53,330 bases of DNA, taken from SAR202 cluster bacterium. GTDB lineage: Bacteria > Chloroflexota > Dehalococcoidia > Lucifugimonadales > VXLM01. The translations under genes were made by a program, and so were the position numbers. Positions 8,194 through 34,237 of the stretch are shown here, piece by piece. The notes under the pieces are model-generated. The model worked only from the letters and a program-made list of their open reading frames with translations. It ran no database searches and had not been told where the DNA came from. How positions within the stretch are numbered: the first letter of the stretch is position 1; each line of letters starts with the position of its first letter. The stretch is taken from contig JAKUTR010000017.1 of NCBI GenBank assembly GCA_022448725.1, positions 1 through 53,330 on the forward strand. The letters run 5' to 3'.

Positions 8194-8976
8194 CTACTGG
8201 TTCATTTCGTAAATGATTTTTAGGCCACTAAGCGTCAAATCTTGGTTAACAGCGTCAAATAGATCCGGTTCCGCAGCAATTAATTCTGCGAACCCTCCTG
8301 TCGCTACTACCTTGCTCCCACCACCAAGTTCTTGGTTAAACCGGGTTACCATTCCCTTCACAATATCGGTGTACCCCAGTACCAGTCCTGATTGGAGTGC
8401 ATGGATGGTATTAGTCCCGATAGCGGTTTGGGGACGTTCCAACTCCACTCTGCGTAGTTGGGAGGCAGAGCGATATAAGGCTTCGGCAGCAATGGAAATC
8501 CCGGGTGCGATTGCACCACCTAAATACTCACCATCTGCTGTTATGGCATCAAATACCGTACCGGTACCAAAATCAACAACAATCACTGGCCCTCCGTACA
8601 GGTTGAGAGCCGCAACCGCATCAACGATACGATCCGCTCCAACATCTCTAGGATTATCGTAAAGAATTCTTATACCTGTCTTCACTCCGGTACCAACTAT
8701 GAGTGGATCAATACCAAAATACGTTTTGCTCATTTCGCGAAAGACAGATCGCAATGGTGGCACTGCACTACATAGCGCCACATCTGTGATTGAATCCGAC
8801 TGGATCCCTCGTAGTGGAAGAAGATTTGTAATCATCAAACCATACTCATCTAAGGTACGGCCACTTTCTGTGTTCAGACGCCATGTAGCCACAGGCGTGT
8901 GTGAACTGGAGTCCTTCTCAGCACTAAAAACACCAATCTTAATATTGGTATTACCTATATCGAGAGCTAGTAACAT
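8194..8976 (-). CDS. coaX: Type III pantothenate kinase
   Basis: CoaX performs the first step of coenzyme A synthesis, ATP-dependent phosphorylation of pantothenate. The 260-residue protein has the ASKHA-fold phosphate motif DIGNTNIKIGVF at the N-terminus, the GADR motif followed by IVDAVAALN, and DFGTGTVFDAI where most homologues read DFGTATTFD. Length is typical. It is first in a two-gene unit with the LutC-like gene and begins at an ATG. The second CoA enzyme in the window, CoaBC at 15931, is not linked to it. Confidence 0.96.
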   Translation of the reverse strand: MLLALDIGNTNIKIGVFSAEKDSSSHTPVATWRLNTESGRTLDEYGLMITNLLPLRGIQSDSITDVALCSAVPPLRSVFREMSKTYFGIDPLIVGTGVKTGIRILYDNPRDVGADRIVDAVAALNLYGGPVIVVDFGTGTVFDAITADGEYLGGAIAPGISIAAEALYRSASQLRRVELERPQTAIGTNTIHALQSGLVLGYTDIVKGMVTRFNQELGGGSKVVATGGFAELIAAEPDLFDAVNQDLTLSGLKIIYEMNQ

Positions 8977-28155: not shown

Positions 28156-29307
28156 TCAGATGGAGAACCTTATGACTGCATCCTCATTAACCTCAACGCC
28201 CAGCCCTGGACTATCGCTTGGTAGAAAGTAGCCATCCTTAGGGCTCGGGTAGATTTTTGCAATCCTAGATCGAGTCTCATGTGCTGTGTGCATATGTTCG
28301 AGAATCTGGAAGTTTGGAACAGCTAATGCGTAGTGAATAGATGCCGCAACAGCGATAGTACCTCCTCCACCTAAATGTGGTGCAATCGGAAGATTATAGG
28401 TATCACACAGTGCAGCAATCCGTTTACCTTCTGAGAGACCAGTGCGGGCTATATCAGGCATCGCAACATCAAAGGCACGGTATTCAATCCACTGTCTCCA
28501 TTCCCAAGACGTCCGCAACCACTCTCCTGTTGCAACTTGCATATCAAGAGCACGGGCAATCTCTGCATGCCCGTGAACATCTTCCGCTAGTGTTACCGCC
28601 TCTAACCATCTAACATCTAACGCTTCCAGACCTCGTCCAAGTTCAATCGCCTCAGAGACATCTCGGGTCCCATGAATATCCACCATCAGCTCAATATCTG
28701 TGCCGACCTGATCACGAGTAGCGGCAACGATCTCGAGAATATCGCAATTCGAAGAACGAAGATGGAGCTTTAAGGCACGGTAACCAGCATCAGCGTGCTC
28801 TGATGCGGACTCCGCTGCTGCCGATGGATTGTTGGTCCCGATACCAGCGTATACCAAGATTTTTTCACGGTAACGCCCTCCAAGGATATGGTATATCGGC
28901 TTATTAACCGTTTTACCTATGATGTCGTATAACGCAATATCTACAGCTGCAAGTGCATCAACATAAAAGCCAGTACCGTGACCACGTTCTCGCATCGCGC
29001 TGTAAAGTCGGTACCAAAGATACTCAACATCAAACGGATCAGCACCAACCAGTACCGGACTACACAGGTCATCGACTATAGTCTTGACCACTCGAGGAGC
29101 GACCGGAGCCTGGCCCTCTCCCCATCCTACAATGCCATCATCCGTTTCAATCCTAACCAATGCTGTCTCATGGTGCTTGGAATAGATAGAGGTCCACTTA
29201 TCTTTAGCAATGGAGTAGCCTTCATACTCGTCAACAGTCGTATCACCGTTCGGGTGCATTCCATCTGGAATTCGAATTGCAAACGCATCGACTCTCTTAA
29301 TCTTCAA
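28156..29307 (-). CDS. Enolase-superfamily acid-sugar dehydratase
   Basis: This 383-residue protein has the mandelate racemase/muconate lactonising enzyme fold. Metal ligands are Asp210 (VDIHG), Glu236 (WLEAV) and Glu262 (TGEW). The base dyad is Asp285 and His311 (IAPHLGGG), with Glu337 following. His212 next to the first ligand, DxHG, is a mark of galactonate and mannonate dehydratases, where it acts as an acid. The barrel strand-2 motif is Lys180-x-His182. It therefore probably dehydrates a sugar acid to a 2-keto-3-deoxy acid; which one is open. The start is TTG at 29307, with GGAG and CAGG just upstream. It leads the operon with the carbamoyltransferase and glycosyltransferase. Confidence 0.9.
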   Translation of the reverse strand: MKIKRVDAFAIRIPDGMHPNGDTTVDEYEGYSIAKDKWTSIYSKHHETALVRIETDDGIVGWGEGQAPVAPRVVKTIVDDLCSPVLVGADPFDVEYLWYRLYSAMRERGHGTGFYVDALAAVDIALYDIIGKTVNKPIYHILGGRYREKILVYAGIGTNNPSAAAESASEHADAGYRALKLHLRSSNCDILEIVAATRDQVGTDIELMVDIHGTRDVSEAIELGRGLEALDVRWLEAVTLAEDVHGHAEIARALDMQVATGEWLRTSWEWRQWIEYRAFDVAMPDIARTGLSEGKRIAALCDTYNLPIAPHLGGGGTIAVAASIHYALAVPNFQILEHMHTAHETRSRIAKIYPSPKDGYFLPSDSPGLGVEVNEDAVIRFSI

Positions 29308-29596
29308 GTGCCTGCTCCCGCTAGAGAACTAATACCTTGATCGTTAAGCTTCATTAACTTCGAAGCAAATAAATAGTAATTGTTGTTACTGGATTCTCCG
29401 TATAGACCAATCATAACGTGAGACCCGTGTAAGGCCAATGTATAGAGGGCAACCCTACTTCGTAAATTAGATGGTTTGTCATGAATCAGCGATAAACACT
29501 CACAAAGACTGCTGGCGGGCAATTTACATAGAGTACAGCTATCAAGACGTAGTGTTTATCAAATAACAAGCACCGGAAGTATCCATCACTGGGCTC
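29308..29596. other. Divergent intergenic region without a gene
   Basis: The region separates the dehydratase (minus strand) from imuB (plus strand). A 72-codon minus-strand frame crosses it but lacks any recognisable family feature and overlaps the dehydratase start, so I do not call it. A short inverted repeat, AGTAAT to TTACT, lies around 29371-29386. No other structure is seen. Confidence 0.5.
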
Positions 29597-29627
29597 TTGA
29601 CATACAAGGTACGCCTTTAAGTATGAT
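29597..29627 (+). promoter_or_regulatory. Promoter of the imuB-dnaE2 operon
   Basis: A consensus -35 TTGACA is at 29597-29602. A -10 TATGAT lies at 29622-29627 with a 19-base spacer, overlapping an alternative GATAAT at 29625-29630. Transcription would begin within a few bases of the ATG at 29636, so the mRNA would be nearly or fully leaderless, in line with the missing ribosome site. Confidence 0.65.
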
Positions 29628-29631
29628 AATA

Positions 29632-29643
29632 GAACATGTGTTC
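29632..29643. promoter_or_regulatory. Putative LexA (SOS) box over the imuB start codon
   Basis: The sequence GAACATGTGTTC has the two half-sites GAAC and GTTC separated by four bases. This is the core of the LexA operator of Gram-positive bacteria and of Chloroflexota. It lies directly after the -10 element and contains the imuB ATG, so a bound repressor would block RNA polymerase. imuB/dnaE2 cassettes are known LexA targets in other phyla. The 12-base pattern also occurs once by chance in the amidase gene at 89-100, so the position, rather than the match alone, carries the argument. Confidence 0.65.
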
Positions 29644-30838
29644 CTATTACTGGTATCCCTCAAAAATCGCATGCGTTCTGGTAACACACTTACCAGCCAA
29701 GGCCGAAATTAGACGAAACCCGCATCTCCGCAAGAAACCTTTCATTATCCTCACACAAGGACGACAAGGGAAAGAAGTCCTCGACTTCGCAAAGGTGAAA
29801 GGAATCATGGCCGGTATGCCAGTACAACAGGCAATTTCTCGAGCAACGGACACTACATTTATTGAAGCTGACGAAGCTTACTATGAAAAAGTCTTTGACA
29901 AAATGATCGGGGGGCTTCTGAACTTCAGTCCATTTATCGAGAAGAGTGAGAGGGGTTGTGCCTATGTGGCTATGAAGGGATCAGACTGGGATTACGGTAA
30001 TGATGATGACGCCATGTCCGCGATACTAGATACAATTCCACACGAGTTCAACCCACGTGTAAGCCTAGGTAATTCAAAGTTCCTATCGTACATTTCTGCC
30101 ATAACTAGTACAGGGGGGCAGGTCCATAAAGTCCCCGATGATATCAAGGGATTTCTGCGTAAGATTCCAATCAATGTATTGCCTATCTCATGGAGTAACC
30201 GCACACGCTTACACAGCTTGGGTCTTCACACTCTTGGCCAGCTATCCGAGATACCTATAGGGGCTATGCAAGCCCAGTTCGGGGTTGAAGGAAAACTTGC
30301 ATGGCAACTAGCTAGCGGTATCGATAGAAGTCCTTTCGTACCCTCCAAAAACCGGAATCTAGCAAGTGATTCTATTACTTTCCCTGTACCTGCCACCTCA
30401 CTGGTTCCTATCTTATCCGCGGTAGAACTCCTACTCGACCGGATCTTTAGGAGTCCTTTTACCAGGGGGAAAGAACTACGTTCTGTGCATATTCAGTCGA
30501 ATATTGAAGACAGAGCACCGTGGTCAAAAAAAATCGTCTTCCGAACACCATTACGTAACAAAGAAACCGTCCTGATTACAATTAGGCACAGTTTTGAATC
30601 CAATGACATTCCAGGCCCATTAGAAGATTTGCGGATGACTGTATGGGAAACAGCACATGCATCAGGTCTGCAATCAAGCTTCTTAACCCATTCTCGTCGA
30701 AGCTATCAACTCCAAAATGCCTTGAGACAACTCGAACTACGCCTCCGGATTAAGCCACCGATATACCGAATTAAGGAAATGGAGCCATGGTCAAGAATTC
30801 CAGAAAGAAGACAATCTCTGGTCGAATACGCCCCCTAA
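29636..30838 (+). CDS. imuB: ImuB-like Y-family polymerase homologue, catalytic residues lost
   Basis: This 400-residue Y-family polymerase relative belongs to error-prone translesion synthesis. The palm begins IACVLVTHLPAKAEIRR, where active Y polymerases carry a metal-binding Asp in VDMDAFFA. The second motif SIDE is replaced by Ser104-Glu-Arg-Gly107. Both catalytic acids are therefore missing, as in ImuB, which acts as an adaptor between the clamp and DnaE2. A helix-hairpin-helix/little finger region follows (LGLHTLGQLSEIPIGAMQAQFG). The tail reads SRIPERRQSLVEY, a possible clamp-binding peptide. It is the first gene of a cassette with a DUF6504-like gene and dnaE2. No imuA gene is adjacent. 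Confidence 0.9.
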   Translation: MCSYYWYPSKIACVLVTHLPAKAEIRRNPHLRKKPFIILTQGRQGKEVLDFAKVKGIMAGMPVQQAISRATDTTFIEADEAYYEKVFDKMIGGLLNFSPFIEKSERGCAYVAMKGSDWDYGNDDDAMSAILDTIPHEFNPRVSLGNSKFLSYISAITSTGGQVHKVPDDIKGFLRKIPINVLPISWSNRTRLHSLGLHTLGQLSEIPIGAMQAQFGVEGKLAWQLASGIDRSPFVPSKNRNLASDSITFPVPATSLVPILSAVELLLDRIFRSPFTRGKELRSVHIQSNIEDRAPWSKKIVFRTPLRNKETVLITIRHSFESNDIPGPLEDLRMTVWETAHASGLQSSFLTHSRRSYQLQNALRQLELRLRIKPPIYRIKEMEPWSRIPERRQSLVEYAP

Positions 30839-31083
30839 ACAGTCCTCTGATGATTACAGTTCAAGTCGACACGAATGGCTGCCCAGCGGTGCTGAAAGTG
30901 AGAGGTCAAGACGTAGCGATTAGTGCGATTTTCGACATATGGGACGTAGTAGATGAATGGTGGAAACCCGGACAAATCGTAAGACGTTATTACGGTATTG
31001 AGCTAGAAGATGGTGGCCGAATGATGATCTTTCACGACAACTACAACAAGGCTTGGTATCGTCAGCAGATCTCTCCTCATTGA
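30787..31083 (+). CDS. DUF6504-like small protein of the mutasome cassette
   Basis: This protein of up to 98 residues resembles DUF6504, a domain that accompanies ImuB and DnaE2 in other bacteria. The diagnostic stretch is ISAIFDIWDVVDEWWKPG, followed by RRYYGIELEDGG and a closing KAWYRQQ. The chosen ATG at 30787 overlaps the end of imuB by 52 bases and has AAGGA nine bases before it. A second ATG at 30850, just past the imuB stop, would give 77 residues. I prefer the longer form because PLNSPLMITVQVDTNG resembles the domain start. dnaE2 follows after four bases. Its job is unknown; it may be an accessory part of the ImuB/DnaE2 complex. Confidence 0.82.
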   Translation: MVKNSRKKTISGRIRPLNSPLMITVQVDTNGCPAVLKVRGQDVAISAIFDIWDVVDEWWKPGQIVRRYYGIELEDGGRMMIFHDNYNKAWYRQQISPH

Positions 31084-31087
31084 TACT

Positions 31088-34000
31088 ATGTCTACCAAAT
31101 ATGTCGAGCTTCACTGTCATAGCAATTATTCGTTCTACGAAGGGGCTTCATTCCCTGAGGAACTCATTGCAGCAGCAAAAGTACTTGAATACCCTGCACT
31201 CGCCTTAACGGACCACAACAACCTCTGTGGCGCGATGGAGTTCGCTCGACTCGCCAACAGGAATGGGATTCAACCAATAACCGGGGTAGAACTCACTCTC
31301 TCCGAGGGATCCCATGTGACACTTCTAGCTGAGACACGCGAAGGATATACAAACCTCTGTAATCTGATCACGGCATCTCATATGGACATGGATGGGACAC
31401 GTCGGCAACCAAGACTCAATCCAAGGGCATTAGAAGGTGGATCAAAAGGCTTAATTCTCCTGACCGGATGTTCGAAGGGCAGAGTCCCCAGATTAATAAA
31501 TGAATCCAACTTTACTGGTGCAGCAGAGGAACTTCAAAAATACATCGAGTGGTTCGGACACCAAAATGTTTTCGTTGAGTTACAACAAAATCTCGTCTAT
31601 GGCGACACACCGCGCAATAGGGGCCTCGTTTCCCTTGCACAGGATCATGGTCTTGAAGTCGTTGCGACTAATAATGTGCACTATCACGTCCCTGAGCGAC
31701 ATCGTCTTCAAGACGTTCTAGTTACAATTCGTCATAATCAAAACCTTGAGGAAACTCATTCGCAACGACGCCCTAACACCAATTTCTATCTACGGTCTGC
31801 GAACGAGATGTCGACCTACTTCCGTAGTCTGCCAAACGCCATCAACAATACAATCGTGATCGCTGCGCGCTGCTCGTTTAATCTCGAAACCAACCTTGGC
31901 TACAAGTTCCCTAGCTACGACAACTTGCCACCTGAACACACTCCCTATAGCTACCTTGTACAGATCTGTAACGAGGCAGCAATACGCAAATATGGATCGA
32001 TACGTTCTCCTATTCAAAATCGTCTAGATGAAGAGCTCCGCTTGATCAAGAAACATGGCCTAGCCGGCTTTTTACTAATCTATTACGAAGTGATGCAAAT
32101 CGCTCAAGAAGTGATGATCGATTTGGGGTACTCAAACTGGGAAACCCCTCTTGAGGAACGCTCACCTGGACGTGGACGTGGATCCTCGGTTGCCATGCTG
32201 GTTGGGTATTTGATCGGGCTCTCACATATTGACCCACTGCACTATGACCTTAAACTTGACCGTTTCATAAACAATGACACCAAAAGTGTCCCCGATATTG
32301 ACATCGACTTCCCACGAGATATCCGTGAAGAAACCATCAAGCGAATACACCAAAAGTATGGTCGAGAGCGAGCCGTTCTCACTGGTGCAATCGCAACTTA
32401 CGGCATTAAGGGTTGTATCAGAGACATCGGGAAAGCATTGGGGATTGCGAAAGAGGAAATTGACAAGTTAGCTAAACGTGTCGATGGTGATCACGCCAAT
32501 AGCTTGGAATCAGAGATCCAGCAGCTACCTGAATTTCAAGACAAAATTAACACAACCCCTTGGCAGATGCTGATTGATTTAGTCGTACAACTTCATGGAT
32601 TCCCTAAGTACCTCATGCAGCATCCCAGTGGGATGATCATTAGTGATACATCTCTTGCCAACATGGTGCCGATTCTACCAGGAGGTATCGAGGGGCGATA
32701 TATATGCCAGTGGGATAAAGAAACAATCGGAGATGCAGGCTTTTTAAAGATTGACCTTCTAGGACTCGCCACGCTCTCCCAAATGCAAGACACGCTTGAC
32801 CTTATATATAAGAGGACCAGTAAATACGAAGACCTTTCCAAGATTAACTTCGAGGACAAGAATGTCTACGAATCCATCCACCGGGCTGACACTGTTGGAG
32901 TATTCCAAATAGAGTCACCTGCCCAAATACAAACGGTTGGTCGACTTAGGCCCAGGAACTTACAGGATATGGCCTACCAAATTGCATCCGTACGTCCTGG
33001 GGTGGGACATAACGACGGCGTTAGCCAGTTTATCGATCGACACACTTTTGGAGTCGATTGGGATTACGACCATCCTTTGGAAAAACCAGCGCTCGAACGT
33101 ACCAAAGGAGTCATCCTCTACCAGGATCAGGTCAACGAACTTGCAGTCTGCGTTGCAGGTTTCAATTATGAGGATGCTGATTTACTTCGTCGTGCCTTTA
33201 GCCGTAAACGGAACAAACGCCTACTTGAAAACTACTGGGAGAAGTTCCGTGTGGGGGCAGCAGAGAACGATATTGATGAAGAAACCGCATCAAAGATCTT
33301 CCAGAAATTTTCAGGACAATACATGTTCCCAGAATCACACGCTTATGCCTTCGGCATCACGGCGTATCAGATGGCATGGCTAAAGTATTACTACCCTCTT
33401 GAATTCTTTGTCGCTATTTTCAATCAACAACCGATGGGGTTTTACAGTCTCGAGACCCTTAAGGAGGATGCTAAACGCCATGGCATTAGAATTCTAGCAC
33501 CAGATATTAACTATAGTGAAGGTGTCTCAGTAATTCGCGATAGCAACGCTTTCTGGCTTGGTTTCTTTAACGTAAAAGGTATTGGGAGAACACATGTAGA
33601 TTTAATACTCAATGAACGTAAGAACGGAGTTTTCACAAGTCTGTCTGAAACGGTCAGGCGAACCGGTCTTCATCAAACAGCCATCGAAAATCTAGTCACA
33701 GCCGGTGCATTTGACTCACTCATATCTAATCGTCGAACTGCTAGGTGGGAGGCTGGTTTACTCTACCACCCCACTGGAGATCAACAACCTTTACCACTGC
33801 CTGTAACGCAAGACATGACCACACTCCCGGATCTGACAACTTGGGACAAAATGGTAAGTGAACACGAGGTCATGAACATTTATCCGACAAGCCACATTAT
33901 GGCTCATATCCGTTCTAGACTCCCAACAAAAACAATATCAAGTAAGGATATCCCTGATTTAAGTGACGGGACCTCTGTCACTGTTGCGGGATTAGTGATT

Positions 34001-34237
34001 CGGAGACAACACCCCAGGGCGAGTGCAATCTTTATAACTCTGGAAGACGAGTTCGGCCATACTCCTTTGATTCTCTGGCCTGATGTCTTCCAACGTTACC
34101 GCCTAGTGATCCGAGAACCACTTCTGAAAGTCCATGGTATAGTCTCCAAGCGACGGGGTACTCTCAATATTCTGGTTCGCCATGTGGAAGCCATCCCCTT
34201 TTCCACTGCTTTACCACCTGCAAAGAATTGGAGCTAG
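31088..34237 (+). CDS. dnaE2: Error-prone DNA polymerase III alpha subunit (DnaE2/ImuC)
   Basis: This 1049-residue C-family polymerase has the PHP domain first (ELHCHSNYSFYEGAS and LTDHNN, with metal-binding His and Asp), then the palm with GRGRGSSVAMLVGYLIGL and the catalytic aspartates in VPDIDIDF (Asp403, Asp405). Fingers, a helix-hairpin-helix part and a C-terminal OB domain follow (TVAGLVIRRQHPRASAIFITL). The short N-terminus and the length of about 1050 residues are typical of DnaE2 rather than the replicative DnaE1. It should carry out mutagenic lesion bypass with the ImuB-like protein. The ATG comes four bases after the DUF6504-like gene. Confidence 0.95.
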   Translation: MSTKYVELHCHSNYSFYEGASFPEELIAAAKVLEYPALALTDHNNLCGAMEFARLANRNGIQPITGVELTLSEGSHVTLLAETREGYTNLCNLITASHMDMDGTRRQPRLNPRALEGGSKGLILLTGCSKGRVPRLINESNFTGAAEELQKYIEWFGHQNVFVELQQNLVYGDTPRNRGLVSLAQDHGLEVVATNNVHYHVPERHRLQDVLVTIRHNQNLEETHSQRRPNTNFYLRSANEMSTYFRSLPNAINNTIVIAARCSFNLETNLGYKFPSYDNLPPEHTPYSYLVQICNEAAIRKYGSIRSPIQNRLDEELRLIKKHGLAGFLLIYYEVMQIAQEVMIDLGYSNWETPLEERSPGRGRGSSVAMLVGYLIGLSHIDPLHYDLKLDRFINNDTKSVPDIDIDFPRDIREETIKRIHQKYGRERAVLTGAIATYGIKGCIRDIGKALGIAKEEIDKLAKRVDGDHANSLESEIQQLPEFQDKINTTPWQMLIDLVVQLHGFPKYLMQHPSGMIISDTSLANMVPILPGGIEGRYICQWDKETIGDAGFLKIDLLGLATLSQMQDTLDLIYKRTSKYEDLSKINFEDKNVYESIHRADTVGVFQIESPAQIQTVGRLRPRNLQDMAYQIASVRPGVGHNDGVSQFIDRHTFGVDWDYDHPLEKPALERTKGVILYQDQVNELAVCVAGFNYEDADLLRRAFSRKRNKRLLENYWEKFRVGAAENDIDEETASKIFQKFSGQYMFPESHAYAFGITAYQMAWLKYYYPLEFFVAIFNQQPMGFYSLETLKEDAKRHGIRILAPDINYSEGVSVIRDSNAFWLGFFNVKGIGRTHVDLILNERKNGVFTSLSETVRRTGLHQTAIENLVTAGAFDSLISNRRTARWEAGLLYHPTGDQQPLPLPVTQDMTTLPDLTTWDKMVSEHEVMNIYPTSHIMAHIRSRLPTKTISSKDIPDLSDGTSVTVAGLVIRRQHPRASAIFITLEDEFGHTPLILWPDVFQRYRLVIREPLLKVHGIVSKRRGTLNILVRHVEAIPFSTALPPAKNWS

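Follow-up and report, generated by a model that had tools for sequence, protein, structure and literature searches.

The 47 nt segment at 29597-29643 of the 53,330 nt stretch of SAR202 cluster bacterium DNA analysed here (the window) raises two questions: is the palindrome at the start of its imuB gene a LexA operator, and is imuB translated from an mRNA that lacks a leader? The original prediction held that a -35, a -10, the motif GAAC-N4-GTTC and the imuB ATG are packed into 47 bases, and direct reading of the sequence confirms this, the layout being ctcTTGACA-19 nt-TATGAT-aata-GAACATGTGTTC-ctattac. The elements of the promoter and start region are as follows.

29597-29602, + strand: -35 element TTGACA, 6/6 to consensus; the hexamer also stands before the box in most relatives
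29622-29627, + strand: -10 element TATGAT, 5/6 to consensus, after a 19 nt spacer
29623-29628, + strand: ATGATA, which may be left over from a spacer-type promoter or act as its alternative -35, 4/6 to TTGACA and weak
29632-29643, + strand: LexA operator GAACATGTGTTC, rank 3 by matrix in 810 kb, the box being conserved at the imuB of relatives
29633-29636, + strand: predicted transcription start, placed 6-9 nt after the -10 from the position of the latter
29636-29638, + strand: ATG that opens imuB, lying within the operator
29645-29650, + strand: TATTAC, which immediately follows the box and could be an alternative -10, 4/6 to TATAAT

The ATG occupies positions 5-7 of the palindrome, and none of AGGA, GGAG or GAGG occurs in the 20 nt before it, so the absence of a ribosome site at an ATG inside the box, also part of the prediction, holds. 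Within the 400 aa frame this ATG is the earliest start codon, and an in-frame TAG (29630-29632) lies just 5′ of it; thus there is no earlier imuB start. No other start codon precedes the conserved ImuB segment, IACVLVTHLP. Since the ATG is inside the operator, the operator also encodes the first codons, Met-Cys-Ser. The 19 nt separating the -35 and -10 is unusual and non-optimal, and a standard scan for spacers of 16-18 nt misses the pair; a 19 nt spacer is also found in two imuB relatives, L084 and L114.

Three genes, all with intact reading frames, make up the operon.

29636-30838, + strand: ImuB-like inactive Y-family polymerase, 400 aa (Pfam IMS, 4e-12)
30787-31083, + strand: stand-alone ImuB C-terminal domain (ImuB-C, DUF6504-like), 98 aa (sub-threshold DUF6504 match, E 0.029)
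31088-34237, + strand: DnaE2-type error-prone polymerase, 1049 aa (Pfam DNA_pol3_alpha, PHP and finger domain)

In alignment, the ImuB-like protein has lost the catalytic D and DE motifs of DinB. The small, overlapping ImuB-C frame is also separate in L113 and L114, the nearest relatives; in L084 it looks fused. For DnaE2 the best NCBIfam match is PRK05672, error-prone DNA polymerase (E 1e-248), at 828 bits against a cut-off of 939. No imuA is present in the operon, and the upstream neighbour is a divergent enolase-family gene. By its sequence, with ImuB-C called on a sub-threshold match and imuA checked at the operon, the locus matches the Kyrpidia tusciae-type imuA-less mutasome variant published by Timinskas and Venclovas (PMC6511836), which likewise combines an inactive PolY, a separate ImuB-C and DnaE2 with no imuA in front; it differs in that the window operator lies over the start codon. 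The imuB copies of two genomes of the same genus (G002 and G003) are only about 30-32 % identical to that of the window, and the nearest copies (50-52 %) are found in other families of the order, a pattern that suggests exchange of the cassette.

Regulation of the mutasome cassette by LexA is described as persistent wherever the cassette occurs (PMC3323433). The bare motif says little in this genome. Exact GAACN4GTTC occurs three times in the window, a count reached or exceeded in 9 of 100 shuffles, and 24 times in the 2.09 Mb genome as against 41 for the reversed control. On its own the exact motif is weak evidence, within chance, and its counts were dropped as evidence for LexA because the genome count lies below the reversed control. 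Genome-wide enrichment by matrix counts was rejected as well, there being no excess over the reversed matrix at thresholds 6 to 12; the matrix scan is informative in its top ranks only. The site is raised above chance by its placement in a promoter, by being conserved in relatives and by its rank under a matrix from which it was left out.

That matrix was built from the lexA and imuB promoter sites of relatives, the window genome's own sites being excluded, and was run over 810 kb of the genome, taken in stretches. The top four sites are those in the promoter of a small Cys4 protein (19.0) and at recA (17.0), imuB (16.5) and lexA (14.7); because the matrix contains no recA sites from relatives, the rank of recA is an independent check. 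Counted as GAACN4GTNC or its mirror over non-redundant loci, the box lies upstream of imuB in 44 of 59 relatives (shuffles: mean 1.3, maximum 5; reversed control: 1) and upstream of lexA in 20 of 24. Among named loci, nearly all from Dehalococcoidia/SAR202 Chloroflexota, it precedes lexA in 69/78, versus 5/78 for the control. An initial DnaE2 scan across named genomes gave no hits. The recA box was found by pattern in 0 of 28 non-redundant order relatives (loci L142-L170), the window genome's own recA promoter having a clear box; the order may thus not be uniform in placing recA under LexA.

As the original prediction had proposed, the genome was searched for lexA and for the motif at other SOS genes. 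It holds one LexA (C23:133941-134576), complete, with HTH DNA-binding and S24 peptidase domains, which aligns over its full length with solved LexA proteins and whose Ala-Gly (A90-G91), Ser132 and Lys171 are invariant across 10 relatives of the order; recA is also present. The lexA promoter reads TTGACA-29 nt-GAACATACGTGC and that of recA TTGAAC-aaataGAACGCCTGTGC-TACACT, with the recA box, GAACGCCTGTGC, between the two hexamers. Both boxes are GAACN4GTGC, a one-base variant in the second half-site. The literal GAACN4GTTC 12-mer is absent upstream of recA, lexA and uvrA, an absence before recA or lexA that the prediction had counted against itself, but the GTGC variant is a normal form of the box in this group. 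The upstream region of uvrA contains no LexA box, and LexA control of that gene was rejected. The LexA box of Dehalococcoides is of the GAAC-N4-GTTC type. The Gram-positive box of Bacillus subtilis and Mycobacterium tuberculosis (PMC3323433) shares with the window the palindrome, the LexA family and the recA, lexA and mutasome targets; the window's group differs in often having GTGC or GTAC as its last half-site, and the window genome has GTGC at its own recA and lexA. The LexA half of the original reading, LexA control combined with a leaderless mRNA, is well supported by the lexA gene, the boxes at recA and lexA and the conservation in relatives, and the imuB promoter site is, as far as sequence comparison can tell, very probably a real LexA operator.

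Other LexA-type sites were seen in the 810 kb. The strongest (G000:C23:21684; L190:1684) has the form TTGACA-aataca-GAACATTTGTAC-TATTAT and precedes a gene at about L190:1731-1955 (+) for a 74 aa Cys4 zinc-ribbon-like protein, which has no Pfam family over the cut-off and a 60 % paralogue in the genome. LexA control of this gene as a conserved feature was rejected, the box not being seen in the gene's relatives. Additionally, dnaA is preceded at 0.2-0.4 kb by two GAACN4GTGC sites (G000:C5:54617 and 54814; L203:14617 and 14814), which score 14.3 and 13.7 with the matrix.

The placement of the imuB operator sets the window apart from its relatives. Of the 29 imuB promoters whose -35 is good, the window's among them, 27 have the box within the spacer between -35 and -10, where it stands 2-6 nt after TTGACA (the spacer type). 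In relatives the start codon follows at least 31 nt downstream of the box, often with a Shine-Dalgarno sequence. Nearly all lexA promoters place the box 26-32 nt after TTGACA, past the -10 and over the expected transcript start. At 29 nt after TTGACA, and across the predicted transcript start, the window imuB box belongs by its geometry to the lexA type. A copy of the genome's own lexA promoter was considered as its source and rejected, since by eye the two share no resemblance beyond the hexamers and the box. The nearest imuB relatives, L113 (52 % identical) and L114 (50 %), are of the spacer type, and their ATG is at the conserved position. None of 45 relatives checked has its start codon inside the box; the window is the only such imuB locus. 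The LexA-mutasome system itself is known; what is new is this variant placement of the operator, which the window genome alone has shown so far.

Taken as a whole, the locus is probably best explained as a promoter under LexA repression that serves an imuA-less mutasome operon with a leaderless or near-leaderless imuB mRNA. RNA polymerase would use TTGACA/TATGAT and initiate at about 29633-29636, and a LexA dimer bound to GAACATGTGTTC across the start point would block initiation. After DNA damage, RecA would trigger the self-cleavage of LexA and the operon would be switched on. As the predicted 5′ end falls 0-3 nt before an AUG that has no ribosome site, imuB would then be translated from a leaderless or near-leaderless mRNA. 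Counted against this explanation are the lack of enrichment of the GTTC motif and its absence at recA, lexA and uvrA, the 19 nt spacer, the rarity of leaderless spacing, an arrangement shared by no relative and the missing recA box in the 28 relatives.

A near-leaderless imuB mRNA, with a predicted leader of 0-3 nt, is likely and the best reading, given where the promoter lies and that no other start codon is available. The first T of TATGAT is 14 nt before the ATG; in bacterial leaderless genes TANNNT stands about 12 nt before the start, and Zheng et al. reported that in 4 of 12 Chloroflexi genomes some 4-6 % of genes are leaderless (PMC3160421). Within the window genome, strong promoter pairs fall at -29 to -38 from the start in 24 cases and at -9 to -18 in 4, imuB included, so leaderless-spaced genes are a minority. 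A Shine-Dalgarno tetramer precedes 44 % of sampled ATG starts, as against 6 % at the control distance. A second near-leaderless spacing, CTGACA-17-TATCAT with the -10 13 nt before the ATG, is seen in the window at the gene 8194-8976 (-).

The operator might instead be genuine and the imuB mRNA not leaderless, transcription starting elsewhere. This is possible, though unlikely. It could take the form of an unrecognised upstream promoter with a leader free of Shine-Dalgarno sequence, or of a promoter ATGATA-16-TATTAC with a non-standard start such as AUC at 29666, variants that even jointly remain the less probable account. The usual position of the box between -35 and -10 in relatives speaks for such a start, as do the -10-like TATTAC after the box, paralleled in L085, and the ImuB proteins of relatives, whose first residue corresponds to roughly residue 9 of the window's ImuB; moreover, about half of the genome's starts have no clear Shine-Dalgarno sequence anyway. 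ATGATA is 3 nt from the box, as is usual for the -35 in relatives, and it and TATTAC could be remnants of a spacer-type promoter. However, these two hexamers match consensus at 4/6 each, compared with 6/6 for TTGACA and 5/6 for TATGAT, a transcript from them would contain no ATG, GTG or TTG in frame before the conserved segment, and a scan of 29300-29700 gave no other + strand promoter.

Because no relative has the arrangement, it could also be peculiar to this one genome or arise from faulty assembly: a draft assembly or sequence error, or a decaying promoter, might have compressed the layout while the real leader and start are of the usual kind. The comparison covered one genome of the species, and the imuB nearest to that of the window is 52 % identical. 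This account is improbable, given that the three frames of the operon are intact, the hexamers, box and ATG form a coherent working set, and the 29 nt from -35 to box equals that of lexA promoters. That the 12-mer is a chance palindrome on which LexA does not act at imuB is very improbable: motif counts below the genome-wide control and within chance in the window would allow it, but the site ranks third in 810 kb by a matrix that excludes it, and the box is conserved in the imuB promoters of relatives.

The favoured reading, a LexA-repressed promoter with a near-leaderless imuB mRNA, has partial counterparts elsewhere. The lexA gene of M. tuberculosis is a precedent for a LexA-regulon gene on a leaderless mRNA (PMC2897130), likewise an SOS gene with its translation start at the transcript start; there the gene is lexA and the evidence experimental, whereas here the gene is imuB and the start predicted. 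In Deinococcus, a genus known for leaderless mRNAs, damage-response genes likewise have RDRM operators near or over their transcription starts, the system being DdrO/IrrE and not LexA (PMC8072749).

A more speculative and rather doubtful extension is that in this lineage the operator left the promoter spacer for the transcript start, capturing the start codon. One 12 bp element would then serve at once as the site for the repressor, the 5′ end of the transcript and the coding sequence of the N-terminus, and a leaderless mRNA might favour translation of the mutasome under damage stress; this too is doubtful.

For the SAR202-type Chloroflexota, the comparisons give a picture of the SOS response with a degenerate box, GAACN4GTNC, placed in the spacer at imuB and at the start site at lexA. 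Within it, one species would have a mutasome promoter of the other placement class and without a leader, a natural case for asking whether error-prone repair under stress benefits from leaderless translation.
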